From: Patescibacteria group bacterium | Lineage (GTDB): Bacteria; Patescibacteriota; Minisyncoccia; Minisyncoccales; JAHCRE01 | Length of the DNA stretch: 41,789 bases | Direction of reading: 5' to 3' | Assembly (NCBI GenBank): GCA_020148055.1 | Contig: JAHCRF010000005.1 | Span: forward strand, 1-41,789 | Shown: in pieces, positions 36,963 to 41,742 of the stretch | Position numbering within the stretch: the stretch's first letter is position 1 | Layout: each line of letters starts with the position of its first letter | Notes under the pieces: model-generated | The model's input: only the letters and a program-made list of their open reading frames with translations | Databases searched by the model: none | What the model was told of the DNA's origin: nothing | Position numbers and translations under genes: made by a program

Positions 36963-37853
36963 TTACTTTTCAATCTTTTCCTTTAAATGTTTTGGTAAAA
37001 CTGTAGAAGAAAAATGAATTTCAGGAAACCAATATTGAAGATTAATTTTTAATTTTTTAAATCTTTTTTCCAACTTTTTTTTGGCAGCTAAGCTGTAATC
37101 TAAATTAAGTTTTGATGCTACTGTGAAACTATAATCTCCAGCTTGATAAGAAGGAATAACCGCTCGATGAACTTTAACATAGGGAAAAATCTTTCTCATT
37201 CTTTTATAAATAATTGCCACCAGTTTTGGCTGACAGGTTAAAGACCCACTTTGAATAGAAACTACTCCCTTTTCTTTCAGGGCTCTCTTAACATCTTTAT
37301 AAAACTTCAAACTAATAAGGTCTTTAGCCGGACCTAAGGGATCTGAAAGATCAAGAATTATTAGGTCAAAAAAATTTTTATATTTTTTTATGAACTTTTT
37401 ACCATTCCCAATAATAATCTCTGCTCTTTTGTCTTTAAATGCTTTCTTAGAAATCGAGGGGAGGTATTTTCTGCAATATTGAATTACTTTTTCATCAATC
37501 TCTACCATCCAGACTTTTTTTACCGGATGTTTCAAAACCTCTTCCAATGCCCCTCCGTCTCCTCCTCCAATAATTAAAACTTTTTGAGGATTAGGATGGT
37601 AAAACATCGGAATTTGACAAAGCATTTCATGATAAATAAATTCATCTTTTTCAGAAGTCTGCAAAATTCCATCCAGAACTAAAATTTTACCAAAACTAAA
37701 AGTGTCAAAAAACTCAATTTTTTGATAAGGAGATTTACCAGAATATAATCTTCTCTTTACTTTTATCCCAATCACAATCTCGGATTCATCAAAAGGTACT
37801 TCGTTTTCAAAAAACCATTGATTTTTTTTAAAAATCCAGAAATTTTTCTTCAT
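36963..37853 (-). CDS. speE: spermidine synthase
   Basis: SPYQKIEFFDTFSFGKILVLDGILQTSEKDEFIYHEMLCQIP...VLIIGGGDGGALEEVLKH...LDLSDPLGPAKDL. Confidence 0.95.
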   Translation of the reverse strand: MKKNFWIFKKNQWFFENEVPFDESEIVIGIKVKRRLYSGKSPYQKIEFFDTFSFGKILVLDGILQTSEKDEFIYHEMLCQIPMFYHPNPQKVLIIGGGDGGALEEVLKHPVKKVWMVEIDEKVIQYCRKYLPSISKKAFKDKRAEIIIGNGKKFIKKYKNFFDLIILDLSDPLGPAKDLISLKFYKDVKRALKEKGVVSIQSGSLTCQPKLVAIIYKRMRKIFPYVKVHRAVIPSYQAGDYSFTVASKLNLDYSLAAKKKLEKRFKKLKINLQYWFPEIHFSSTVLPKHLKEKIEK

Positions 37854-38248
37854 GACACCAGTCCTCTTTTTATCTCCTGAACTTGAATTTTTTTTGGTTG
37901 AAATTTCTTTTTCAAATATTCAAGGGCTTTTGAGGGAAGAGCTCTTTTGCCACAAGTGAAAATATCTATTGCCACATAATTTATTTCCGGCCAGGTGTGC
38001 AAGGCGATATGGGACTCGGCCAATAAAACAACCCCAGTTATTCCCTGAGGTGAAAATTTATGGATTGTAACTCCCAAAGGAGTATTCTCAGATTTCTTTA
38101 CCGCCTCAACTAAAATATTCTTAATCTCTTTTGGGTTTTCAATAATTTTTCCATTCCAAAATTCGGCAATCAAGTGAATGCCAGCGTAATTTAAATTTGT
38201 TTCTTTGGTCAGGATCCATTTCTTGGATCTCTTTGTTTTCTGGACCAT
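37850..38248 (-). CDS. speD: S-adenosylmethionine decarboxylase proenzyme
   Basis: GIHLIAEFWNGK...GVVLLAESHIALHTWPEINYVAIDIFTCGKRALPSKALEYLKKKF (pyruvoyl Ser motif ESH). Confidence 0.94.
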   Translation of the reverse strand: MVQKTKRSKKWILTKETNLNYAGIHLIAEFWNGKIIENPKEIKNILVEAVKKSENTPLGVTIHKFSPQGITGVVLLAESHIALHTWPEINYVAIDIFTCGKRALPSKALEYLKKKFQPKKIQVQEIKRGLVS

Positions 38249-38503: not shown

Positions 38504-38866
38504 TTATTTTTTGGCATTAAAAAATTTTTTTGTAAAGTCTATCGCCTTTTTATCATTAAATAATTTACAAGAAAAAATATTAATGAAAGCCCCATTCCAG
38601 AGTTCAGAAAAATGACCGGAAATTAAGCTTGACTCTATCAATTGAACCAAAGAGAAACCTACAGTAAAATCTTTTCCAAAACCAAATCTTTCTATAATTG
38701 GTTTACCATACTTTTCAACTTTTATCAAATCACAAAGCCGATTTGAGTATTCCAAAATTTTTTTCTTAGAACGAATAATTTTTGGGTCGCAATCAAAAAG
38801 ATCCAAAATCAATTCATTTCCATAAACTTTTGATTTTTGATTTTTGATTTTTGATTTTTTTATCAT
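38504..38866 (-). CDS. SpeD-like (AdoMetDC-fold) paralog
   Basis: NELILDLFDCDPKII...GFSLVQLIESSLISGHFSELWNGAFINIFSCKLFNDKKAIDFTKKFFNAKK aligns by eye with SpeD ESHxxxHTWPE...AIDxFTCG; begins with KSKIKNQKSK heptamer-derived tract. Confidence 0.78.
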   Translation of the reverse strand: MIKKSKIKNQKSKVYGNELILDLFDCDPKIIRSKKKILEYSNRLCDLIKVEKYGKPIIERFGFGKDFTVGFSLVQLIESSLISGHFSELWNGAFINIFSCKLFNDKKAIDFTKKFFNAKK

Positions 38867-39309
38867 GTTCCTTCTTCTCTTATTCTTCCTTTTCTAAAAA
38901 ATCTGGCTGAGGGAGAAATCTTTAATTCCTTTTTAAAAGCTCTTTGTTTTCTTTTATCTTGGGTTGTTATTTTTTCTTTGTATTGTTTTAGTTGTCGCTG
39001 TAATTCGTCTTTGACTTCGACTATTGCTAACTTTAAATCCTTTAAACGAGCAGTTGCCCTCAAACTTTTGCTAGGAAATCTCATCTGGCATTCTGCCCAA
39101 AAAAATGGTCCTTTTTGATGATGTAAAGTTTCTTTTCCAATCTCTACCCAGACCTCAACCCTTGGTTTTCCCTTTCCAAAGAAATGATTAAAATATTTTT
39201 CCTTTTGAAAAATTTTTGCAAATTTTTCAAGGGGACTGAATTTTTCTTGAATATAATTTTCGAGAGCCCGAGTCAATTCTACATTTTTAGTTTTTATGAC
39301 GATTTTCAT
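38863..39309 (-). CDS. hpf: ribosome hibernation/translation inhibitor (HPF/RaiA)
   Basis: MKIVIKTKNVELTRALENYIQEKFSPLEKF...VEVWVEIGKETLHHQKG...AECQMRFPSKSLRATARLKDLKLAIVEVKDELQRQLKQYKEK. Confidence 0.88.
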   Translation of the reverse strand: MKIVIKTKNVELTRALENYIQEKFSPLEKFAKIFQKEKYFNHFFGKGKPRVEVWVEIGKETLHHQKGPFFWAECQMRFPSKSLRATARLKDLKLAIVEVKDELQRQLKQYKEKITTQDKRKQRAFKKELKISPSARFFRKGRIREEGT

Positions 39310-39697: not shown

Positions 39698-40579
39698 TTA
39701 CTTCAGGTACTGTATTTCCTCTTCCAATTTTATGCCAAATTTATTTTTGACTTTCTGTTTTATTAATTTTATCAATTTTATTACATCTTTTGCTTTTCCA
39801 TTTCCTGAATTTACAATAAAATTGGCGTGTCTGTCAGAAATTTTAATATTTCCAATCGCTTTTCCTTTTAATCCACACTTTTCAATTAATTCTGCTGCAA
39901 AAAATTTTTTTGTATTTTTAAAAATAGAACCAACTGAAGAAAAATTCAAAGGTTGCGTTTCCTTCCGATACTCTAAGAATTCTTTCACCCTGTTTTTGAT
40001 TTTTTCTTTATCCCCTTTTTTGAGTTGAAGTTCGGCTGAAAGGATTATCAAATTTTTCTTTTTTTTGAAAACACTATCCCGATAACTAAATTTACAATCT
40101 TTTAATTCGTAATTCTTGATTCTTGATTCAGCCACATCAAATACCTCAACCTCTTTAACAATATCTGCCATCGATCTTCCAAAGGCACCGCAGTTCCCAG
40201 ATATCGCCCCACCAACTGTTCCCGGAATTCCTATTGCCCATTCTAGACCCGCTAAATTATTTTTAAAAGCAAAATTAACTAATTGACCCAAGAGTGCTCC
40301 CGCTTCAGTATAAATTCTTTGATTTTCGATTTTTGATTTTTGATTTTTGATTTTTATAACTAATCCTTTGTATCCCTCATCCGAAACCAAAATATTGCTT
40401 CCTTCCCCTAAAATAAAAAATGGCAAGTTATATTTTTTGGCCGCTGAAACTGCCGAGATTATTTCTTTTTTTGTTTTTGCCACAAAAAAATATTTGGCCT
40501 TACCACCAATTTTAAAAGTTGTGTAATTTTTCAACAAAACATTTCTTTTAACTCCAGGGGGTAATTTCTTAAAGTCCAT
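39698..40579 (-). CDS. murB: UDP-N-acetylenolpyruvoylglucosamine reductase
   Basis: NYTTFKIGGKAKYF...FFILGEGSNILVSDEGYKGLVIKI...GLEWAIGIPGTVGGAISGNCGAFG...NFSSVGSIFKN; two heptamer-derived insertions. Confidence 0.97.
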   Translation of the reverse strand: MDFKKLPPGVKRNVLLKNYTTFKIGGKAKYFFVAKTKKEIISAVSAAKKYNLPFFILGEGSNILVSDEGYKGLVIKIKNQKSKIENQRIYTEAGALLGQLVNFAFKNNLAGLEWAIGIPGTVGGAISGNCGAFGRSMADIVKEVEVFDVAESRIKNYELKDCKFSYRDSVFKKKKNLIILSAELQLKKGDKEKIKNRVKEFLEYRKETQPLNFSSVGSIFKNTKKFFAAELIEKCGLKGKAIGNIKISDRHANFIVNSGNGKAKDVIKLIKLIKQKVKNKFGIKLEEEIQYLK

Positions 40580-40604
40580 TATTTTATTTTAGCAAAAACT
40601 GTGT

Positions 40605-40677
40605 TAAAATGTAATTGGCCGGGAGGATAGCACTCACTAAAGACTTAGAATAGGAGTCAACTCTCCCGGCCTTTTTT
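40605..40677 (+). ncRNA. candidate small RNA (RNA-1) with extended -10 and self-terminating outer stem
   Basis: TGtTAAAAT (40602-40610); GGCCGGGAG (40617-40625) pairs with CTCCCGGCC (40663-40671) followed by TTTTTT. Confidence 0.45.
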
Positions 40678-40683
40678 ATTCCC

Positions 40684-40755
40684 AAAAGCAAAAGACCTCG
40701 CTCGAGTGAGGTCCTTCGCCGACTTTAGAATGGAACCCTTTCGGGTTGCACTCAC
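40684..40755 (-). ncRNA. candidate small RNA (RNA-2) with TTGACA-17-TAATAT promoter and intrinsic terminator
   Basis: Promoter TTGACA 40790-40785, TAATAT 40767-40762; transcript GTGAGTGCAACCCGAAAGGGTTCCATTCTAAAGTCGGCGAAG + GACCTCactcgagcGAGGTC + TTTTGCTTTT. Confidence 0.55.
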
Positions 40756-40813
40756 TATTTAATATTAGCAGATTTCAAAAACCTTGTCAAGATTTTCTTT
40801 AGAAACGTTTAAA

Positions 40814-41030
40814 TTAAAAAGCTTTAGCCGGAAGAAGATTCTTCATTAGAATTTCAGTTACTCTTTTCTTGCCTATCTTTTCACTTGCTCCAATTATCTC
40901 CAAATATAATGGATTATTTTTTTATCCAAATCTAAATTTATCTCTGGGGCAGTCTCCAGAGTCTTAGCAACTTAGCTCTTGTTGTACTTCCAACAAAGCC
41001 AGTCCCCTTCTCTAATTCCCAAGGAGTCAT
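40814..41030 (-). pseudogene. degraded coding remnant
   Basis: Coding-like text split over frames: MTPWELEKGTGFVGSTTRA / VAKTLETAPEINLDLDKKIIHYIW / IGASEKIGKKRVTEILMKNLLPAKAF*. Confidence 0.4.
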
Positions 41031-41034
41031 GTTT

Positions 41035-41742
41035 TTAAGTTTTATACTTTGCTTTTCTCCCACCACTCCTGGAAAAAGCCCAAAATATTCCAATAAAAAC
41101 TCCCAAAACAGCAGCTATTATTATATTTAACAAAGGTTTTGGTCTAACTGGATTTTCTGAAATAGTAGGTTCTCTTATTACTTGGGTGGGCTGAAGCGCT
41201 TCCTTTTTTCTTTGAAGATTATTTATTTCCAGCTGAAGAATTGCTGTTTCTTGACCTTTTGAAATAAAAAAATCAATTTTTTCTTGCAATTCCTCGATTT
41301 CTTTTTCTAAGAGATTCTTTTGGGAGTTAATTTTGTTGTTATGTTCAGCTAAAATTAATTCATTTATATTCTCCAGGATCTTTTTAGTTTTTTGGGGTTC
41401 TTTTGAAATTGCTTCAATTTTTATTAGATTTGTATCGGTTGGATTGCTAATTTTTATTCCTGGGAACCAGCCATAAATACCATTATTAATTTTCTCCACC
41501 AACTGTTCAGGTGGTTCTACTACCTCAAAAGGAGCTTCTGTCACCTGTCCTATTATCCTTCCTATTTCTAAAGAAGTATCAATTTTATAAAATTTTGGCG
41601 AAAACCAACTAAAAACTCCAGCTACTATTACTGCTGCTAAAAACACAGCCAAAATCAACCATTTCCTTTTAAGTATCACTTTAACATAGTCCATTAAATC
41701 AATTTCCTCATATTCGGTTTGAATTTTTTCTTCTTGATTCAT
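41035..41742 (-). CDS. Wzz/YveK-type polysaccharide chain-length determinant-like protein
   Basis: EEIDLMDYVKVILKRKWLILAVFLAAVIVAGVFSWFSPKFYK..., coiled coil, RPKPLLNIIIAAVLGVFIGIFWAF: Wzz topology with Pro-rich second TM. Confidence 0.85.
   Translation of the reverse strand: MNQEEKIQTEYEEIDLMDYVKVILKRKWLILAVFLAAVIVAGVFSWFSPKFYKIDTSLEIGRIIGQVTEAPFEVVEPPEQLVEKINNGIYGWFPGIKISNPTDTNLIKIEAISKEPQKTKKILENINELILAEHNNKINSQKNLLEKEIEELQEKIDFFISKGQETAILQLEINNLQRKKEALQPTQVIREPTISENPVRPKPLLNIIIAAVLGVFIGIFWAFSRSGGRKAKYKT

Follow-up and report, generated by a model that had tools for sequence, protein, structure and literature searches.

Results

Two small RNA units between murB and a Wzz-type gene

The stretch of DNA analysed here (the window, 41,789 nucleotides) raises the question of how two small, facing RNA units are related to each other and to the neighbouring gene, as both occupy the interval that separates murB from a Wzz-type gene (41035-41742, - strand) and share motifs in swapped order. 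A sequence-only reading had offered two answers, namely a circularly permuted structured RNA or a trans-complementary RNA pair made from opposite strands.

The first unit, RNA-1, is a hairpin RNA of about 60 nt (~40616-40677, +), supported by a covariance model and folding z, which in the window ends with a U-tract as an intrinsic terminator. It is preceded by an extended -10 (TG-t-TAAAAT, 40602-40610, +) and closed by an outer stem of 10 bp (40617-40626 with 40662-40671, +) defined by covariation; as read from the sequence, GGCCGGGAG (40617-40625) faces CTCCCGGCC (40663-40671), followed by TTTTTT (40672-40677). Inside this stem lie two segments, A (GCACTCACTA, 40630-40639, +) and B (GACTTAGAATAGGAGT, 40642-40657, +), which are complementary to the segments A' and B' of the second unit, as supported by own versus swapped duplex energies (see below). 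The latter, RNA-2, is a small RNA of about 73 nt (~40756-40684, -; covariance model, folding z), whose promoter TTGACA-17-TAATAT with the TG of an extended -10 (40790-40762, -) is recognizable in the sequence and in homologues. From 5' to 3', RNA-2 runs from a single strand through a small hairpin and another single-stranded piece to a terminator, corresponding to A' at the 5' end (TAGTGAGTGC, 40748-40757, -; from motif count and duplex energies), the spacer hairpin AACCC-GAAA-GGGTT (40734-40747, -; from the alignment), B' (CCATTCTAAAGTC, 40721-40733, -; from duplex energies), and GCGAAGGACCTC...GAGGTCTTTTGC plus TTTT (40684-40719, -), a 12-bp stem with 12 covarying pairs. Hence the promoters, outer stem, terminator and T-run described for the two units by the sequence-only reading are all in place, as are the motifs it had found in both: TAGTGAGTGC has exactly two occurrences, both on the - strand, at 40630-40639 and 40748-40757 (with at most one mismatch, three matches versus a mean of 0.63 in shuffled sequence), GACTTAGAAT lies at 40642-40651 and GACTTTAGAAT at 40721-40731.

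The same reading had stated that no coding gene explains the region, and indeed no ORF of at least 60 aa covers the RNA-1/RNA-2 stretch. An encoded peptide, considered by eye, was discarded, as the length variation of the RNA-2 hairpin breaks the frame and RNA-1 lacks a conserved start codon. At the Rfam gathering threshold neither RNA was matched, the window's matches being three tRNAs elsewhere, and the best sub-threshold matches (SNORA36, ctRNA_p42d, RAGATH-14, Chlorobi-1) fell far under their cut-offs. Likewise, 6S RNA was rejected as an identity, since 30 relatives (G000-G029) yielded no RF00013 match above the cut-off and control genomes do match.

The gene murB (39698-40579, -; Pfam MurB_C, FAD_binding_4) is here divergent from RNA-1, and a Ribosomal_S30AE gene of the hpf/raiA type (38863-39309, -; Pfam PF02482, synteny) is the second gene of a conserved block. 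On the other side, 40800-41035 holds a remnant of a peptidoglycan-binding-type C-terminus (GFVG.TTRA-like) with no intact ORF; relatives possess an intact gene with such an end near the RNA pair. Furthermore, two nearby S-adenosylmethionine decarboxylase (AdoMet_dc) genes (37850-38248 and 38504-38866) adjoin a spermidine synthase.

Each RNA has its own conserved structure and promoter

Compared with shuffled sequences, RNA-1 and RNA-2 folded with z of -4.8 and -4.9, respectively. In the RNA-1 outer stem, all 10 modelled pairs have changed on both sides among 46 sequences, with 96.9% of cells paired and the same outcome in 61 further sequences, and sliding the partner by one column as a control lowered pairing to 58-59%. 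The RNA-2 terminator displayed covariation at all 12 pairs with 97.2% of cells paired; the alignments were fitted to these structures and hence favour them, the counts still being far above the slid controls. Covariation in the arms, which the sequence-only reading had set as a test, is therefore present (10/10 and 12/12 pairs), and stems do exist on both sides as it had claimed, but they belong to two different transcripts. Within the RNA-1 loop, ACUC of segment A is paired with GAGU of segment B in 99-100% of sequences, and this inner stem shows U-A to C-G double changes. The RNA-2 spacer hairpin varies in length and is missing in three genomes (G041, G010, G056). When folded singly, RNA-2 pairs A' with B' in 98/101 cases and RNA-1 pairs A with B in 84/101.

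With up to three mismatches, the RNA-2 promoter was found in 99 of 100 homologues versus 22 after shuffling, including an exact TTGACA in 91 and the TG in 88, and it is strong and probably constitutive. For RNA-1, a TAnnnT hexamer lies at most 16 nt upstream in 106 of 107 homologues. We infer that both RNAs are transcribed.

RNA-1 and RNA-2 co-occur across one order of Parcubacteria

When the 216 bases covering the units were compared with 60 relatives by blastn, many families of the order were matched, down to E ~1e-31, which places the units far beyond chance. Covariance models built from these matches for RNA-1 (R1) and RNA-2 (R2) detected them in 122 and 133 of the 247 genomes of the order, respectively, usually as one copy each per genome and nearly always together; among the 60 relatives, 43 have both, 14 lack both and three gave just an RNA-1 match, which was weak in two. 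Named matches comprise Nealsonbacteria, Wildermuthbacteria and other Parcubacteria, all within one Parcubacteria order. RNA-1 was not found outside it in 380 phylum-wide genomes, a search with few candidates scored per genome, which weak distant forms could escape, and viral contigs gave no match to one 19-base core. One genome (G479, L195) has a contig with one RNA-2 and two RNA-1 copies of identical loop (1140-1196 and 2880-2937); an apparent murB follows one of these copies, and no obvious gene the other.

Segments of the two RNAs change together

What looked like shared motifs turned out to be complementary segments, A and B belonging to RNA-1 and A' and B' to RNA-2. As the covariance models hold no information on pairing between molecules, comparing the duplexes of each genome's own RNAs with those of partners swapped between genomes is not circular. 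In 41 genomes the own duplexes reached -32.2 kcal/mol versus -25.8 for swapped ones (z -11.9, 0/20,000 permutations as good), with one genome per family the z was -10.6 (0/100,000), and 60 further pairs outside model building gave -32.0 versus -23.7 kcal/mol (z -17.8, 0/20,000); these permutations remove shared ancestry incompletely, but own pairs are favoured most when the families compared have dissimilar loops. Where loops are less than 70% identical, own pairs win 99-100% of comparisons. The B helix behaves in the same way, with -16.6 versus -12.5 kcal/mol in the 41 genomes and -16.4 versus -11.2 in the 60. Median lengths are 10 bp for A·A' and 14 bp for B·B'. Divergent complements include CACCCACA with UGUGGGUG and CUUAGGAUUGGG with CCCAAUCCUAAG in G054, UUUAGAGUUUAUA with UAUAAACUCUAAA in G042, AAAGGGUUGGAGU with ACUCCGAUUCUUU in G046, CACCCAA with UUGGGUG in G044, and CUACUAAAUUC with GAGUUUAGUGG in G056.

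Two genomes with RNA-1 (G031, G013) initially had no RNA-2 match, and a search for the promoter and the complement then located RNA-2 just upstream of RNA-1 in both, as predicted, the G031 duplexes amounting to -22.0 and -24.6 kcal/mol. The predicted complement did not reveal an RNA-2 in G017, G032 or G043; a pattern match in G032 had neither promoter nor terminator and was put down to chance.

In both RNAs the A-type segment comes first and the B-type segment second. The order seen on the + strand is permuted because RNA-2 read backwards gives B and then A, and with A first in both molecules, the pairing of A with A' and B with B' crosses and does not form a plain antisense duplex. That mutual pairing of RNA-1 and RNA-2 has been under selection is strongly supported by these comparisons, and the intermolecular covariation in 41 plus 60 genomes bears out the trans-complementary pair suggested earlier. 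On sequence grounds, RNA-1 and RNA-2 are two separate trans-acting RNAs.

Arrangement with respect to murB

Most genomes carry RNA-2, RNA-1, murB, the Ribosomal_S30AE (hpf-type) gene and secA in this order on one strand, the two RNAs in tandem a short distance apart. Co-occurrence at murB, the other test named beforehand, is thus conserved. In contrast, the notion of a pair made from opposite strands applies to the window and a few other lineages only. The first ATG follows the RNA-1 stem at a median of 16.5 nt, hence any transcript that starts at the RNA-1 promoter necessarily includes RNA-1 ahead of murB, and as judged from this gene order most genomes have RNA-1 as the murB 5' leader.

In seven of the 60 relatives RNA-1 is inverted with respect to murB: the genome of the window (G000), its family members G001 and G002, as well as G058, G019, G048 (one contig) and G035. 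Inverted copies either finish in a U-tract or have a terminator hairpin of their own behind them; a T-run of at least four after the stem was counted in 7/9 inverted and 46/98 non-inverted copies. In many non-inverted genomes (L098 and L123 are examples), the RNA-2 terminator tail TTTTGCTTTT sits at -35 distance from the RNA-1 -10, and may double as the RNA-1 -35 element. For the inverted genomes, a resemblance in G000 (GACTTTAAGAA..GGAGTT; p about 0.003 to 0.025) suggested that RNA-2 might pair directly with the start of murB; this idea was dropped since the other inverted genomes were mostly weak and non-inverted controls showed a similar slight excess.

The RNAs can also lie far from each other: in G033 they are separated by 50 kb, and in G006, G051 and G485 by kilobases, there with one RNA on each strand, so that they act in trans. 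Furthermore, the pair precedes hpf in G054, with murB 47 kb away, and in G031 a complete RNA-2/RNA-1 module (L138, about 1499-2750) is directly upstream of pheS, so that murB is not an obligatory target; in G039, RNA-1 is free-standing. Five relatives had no detectable murB (one of them only 79% complete), and the pair is absent from all five, a coincidence with a chance of about 4e-4 by a hypergeometric count that ignores relatedness. Nine relatives possess murB and lack the pair; by eye, no similar element was seen in the 560 bases upstream of such murB genes in eight relatives.

Discussion

Our preferred reading, which we hold with somewhat more belief than doubt, is that RNA-2 would be a chromosomal antisense RNA which regulates the RNA-1 leader by way of a strand-exchange complex similar to that of CopA and CopT. 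On this view RNA-2 is a short sRNA of the antisense type with a strong promoter, and RNA-1 is its sole detectable partner. Apart, RNA-1 would fold A on B and RNA-2 A' on B'; upon meeting, the arms would be exchanged to give A·A' (about 10 bp) beside B·B' (about 14 bp), both helices supposedly forming at the same time. The remaining arms of the resulting four-way junction would be the outer stem of RNA-1 and the hairpin of RNA-2, and this junction would keep the outer stem closed immediately before the start codon of murB, which would favour a stop or block of the leader transcript. In this manner RNA-2 would determine how much the RNA-1 promoter yields, in the way that CopA acts on CopT, and in the lineage of the window RNA-1 would be a free-standing terminated RNA. 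Regulation of murB by the pair, and its direction, are predicted from this arrangement: repression through a locked outer stem, by termination or by a blocked start, is a tentative choice of which we are less than half convinced, and activation appears less likely than repression.

Several observations complicate the proposed leader control. Single-sequence folds revealed no anti-terminator pairing with the RNA-1 outer stem, and as RNA-2 does not contact this stem, any influence of pairing on termination or on translation is conjectural. Among the non-inverted copies, about half have no clear U-tract, which weakens attenuation. Moreover, inverted RNA-1 copies and the free-standing one keep their sequence and lead into no gene; thus leader control cannot account for everything, and two rivals come into play, the pair itself as the product and a sponge.

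According to the first of these, which we regard as distinctly improbable though worth keeping in sight, the RNA-1:RNA-2 complex is itself the product, a two-piece RNA serving at any place in the cell as a scaffold, a protein-binding RNA or a trans-acting regulator, and murB is merely a conserved neighbour driven by the RNA-1 promoter. In its favour, RNA-1 is retained with a terminator where inverted, or free-standing, a single copy per genome is usual and the loop sequence is nearly invariant in many families; in addition, with no 6S RNA detected in the 30 relatives, one or more of the common housekeeping RNAs must be lacking or go unrecognized. However, most genomes tie the pair strongly to murB and both are absent together, and the intermolecular segments drift freely while staying complementary, which suggests no strict third-party constraint. 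A related proposal, to which we assign the same low probability, is a dedicated two-component RNA machine, in which two independently transcribed RNAs, each maintained as one copy throughout the order, would work only as a strand-exchanged, pseudoknot-like bimolecular complex in trans, control of murB being secondary.

RNA-1 might instead be a sponge or decoy for RNA-2, whose true targets would be other mRNAs. The RNA-2 promoter is indeed stronger than that of RNA-1, the seed at the RNA-2 5' end is its best conserved part, and inverted RNA-1 stands alone, the usual form of a sponge. We nevertheless consider this unlikely, as there is a single RNA-1-like site per genome and a third target would need to covary; in inverted genomes, the region of the murB start showed no stronger pairing than in controls. 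Far less plausible is a riboswitch-like leader in cis, with RNA-2 and RNA-1 in one read-through transcript: their tandem on the same strand at short distance in most genomes would fit, but separate promoters and the terminator are conserved, and a read-through structure is contradicted by the genomes in which the RNAs are inverted, on opposite strands or 1-50 kb apart with complementarity kept. Circularly permuted copies of one structured RNA, suggested by the same + strand motifs in swapped order, can practically be dismissed, since promoters and terminators are on different strands, the conserved helices differ (RNA-1 has an outer stem, RNA-2 a short hairpin and a terminator), and the RNA-2 motifs covary with RNA-1 as its complement, compensatory changes included, so that the two are not homologues.

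Antisense regulator and target of plasmid R1, CopA and CopT, are transcribed from opposite strands of the same DNA. Like them, the RNAs favoured here as regulator and leader comprise a small constitutive-type antisense RNA and a leader hairpin with inner loops, which would exchange arms to give two side-by-side intermolecular helices and a four-way junction, in our case computed from sequence complementarity. Mutual complementarity is common to both systems, compensatory changes being present in RNA-1 and RNA-2. The target of CopA is the leader of a downstream gene; RNA-1, the proposed target here, has this position in most genomes and not in the window's family or other inverted cases. CopA-CopT is an antisense-leader pair of near-perfectly complementary chains (PMC10798244, PMC4878617). 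In contrast, only two segments are complementary in RNA-1 and RNA-2, which are chromosomal and parcubacterial, and whose genes never overlap and can lie 50 kb apart; as RNA-2 is not encoded opposite its target, we do not count the pair as a member of the plasmid antisense-leader class. In pT181, antisense-mediated transcription attenuation operates by leader binding that favours the terminator (PMC4878617). An antisense RNA acting on a leader in favour of a terminator is also what we propose, but here the outer stem has no evident anti-terminator, the antisense RNA is not opposite its target and termination is only predicted. GlmY/GlmZ exemplify trans-encoded sRNAs and sRNA sponges. Such RNAs resemble RNA-1 and RNA-2 in their separate genes, partial complementarity and a seed as at the RNA-2 5' end; unlike them, RNA-1 and RNA-2 are dedicated one-to-one and covary order-wide in two segments of crossing order.

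RNA-1 and RNA-2 constitute a previously uncatalogued RNA partnership, neither member being in Rfam, and our literature search found nothing on the pair. Very little has been charted of the small RNAs in candidate-phyla-radiation bacteria. As a natural data set on RNA-RNA recognition, a one-to-one sRNA pair that is encoded on a chromosome and covaries between molecules in more than 100 genomes is rare, and it offers dozens of naturally divergent sense-antisense pairs. If the strand-exchange reading holds, a design known from plasmids would be employed by a chromosome with the two genes uncoupled. The pair probably controls a cell-wall gene in ultra-small, mostly uncultivated bacteria, and would then be a first RNA-level entry to the control of such a gene in organisms that are hard to manipulate.
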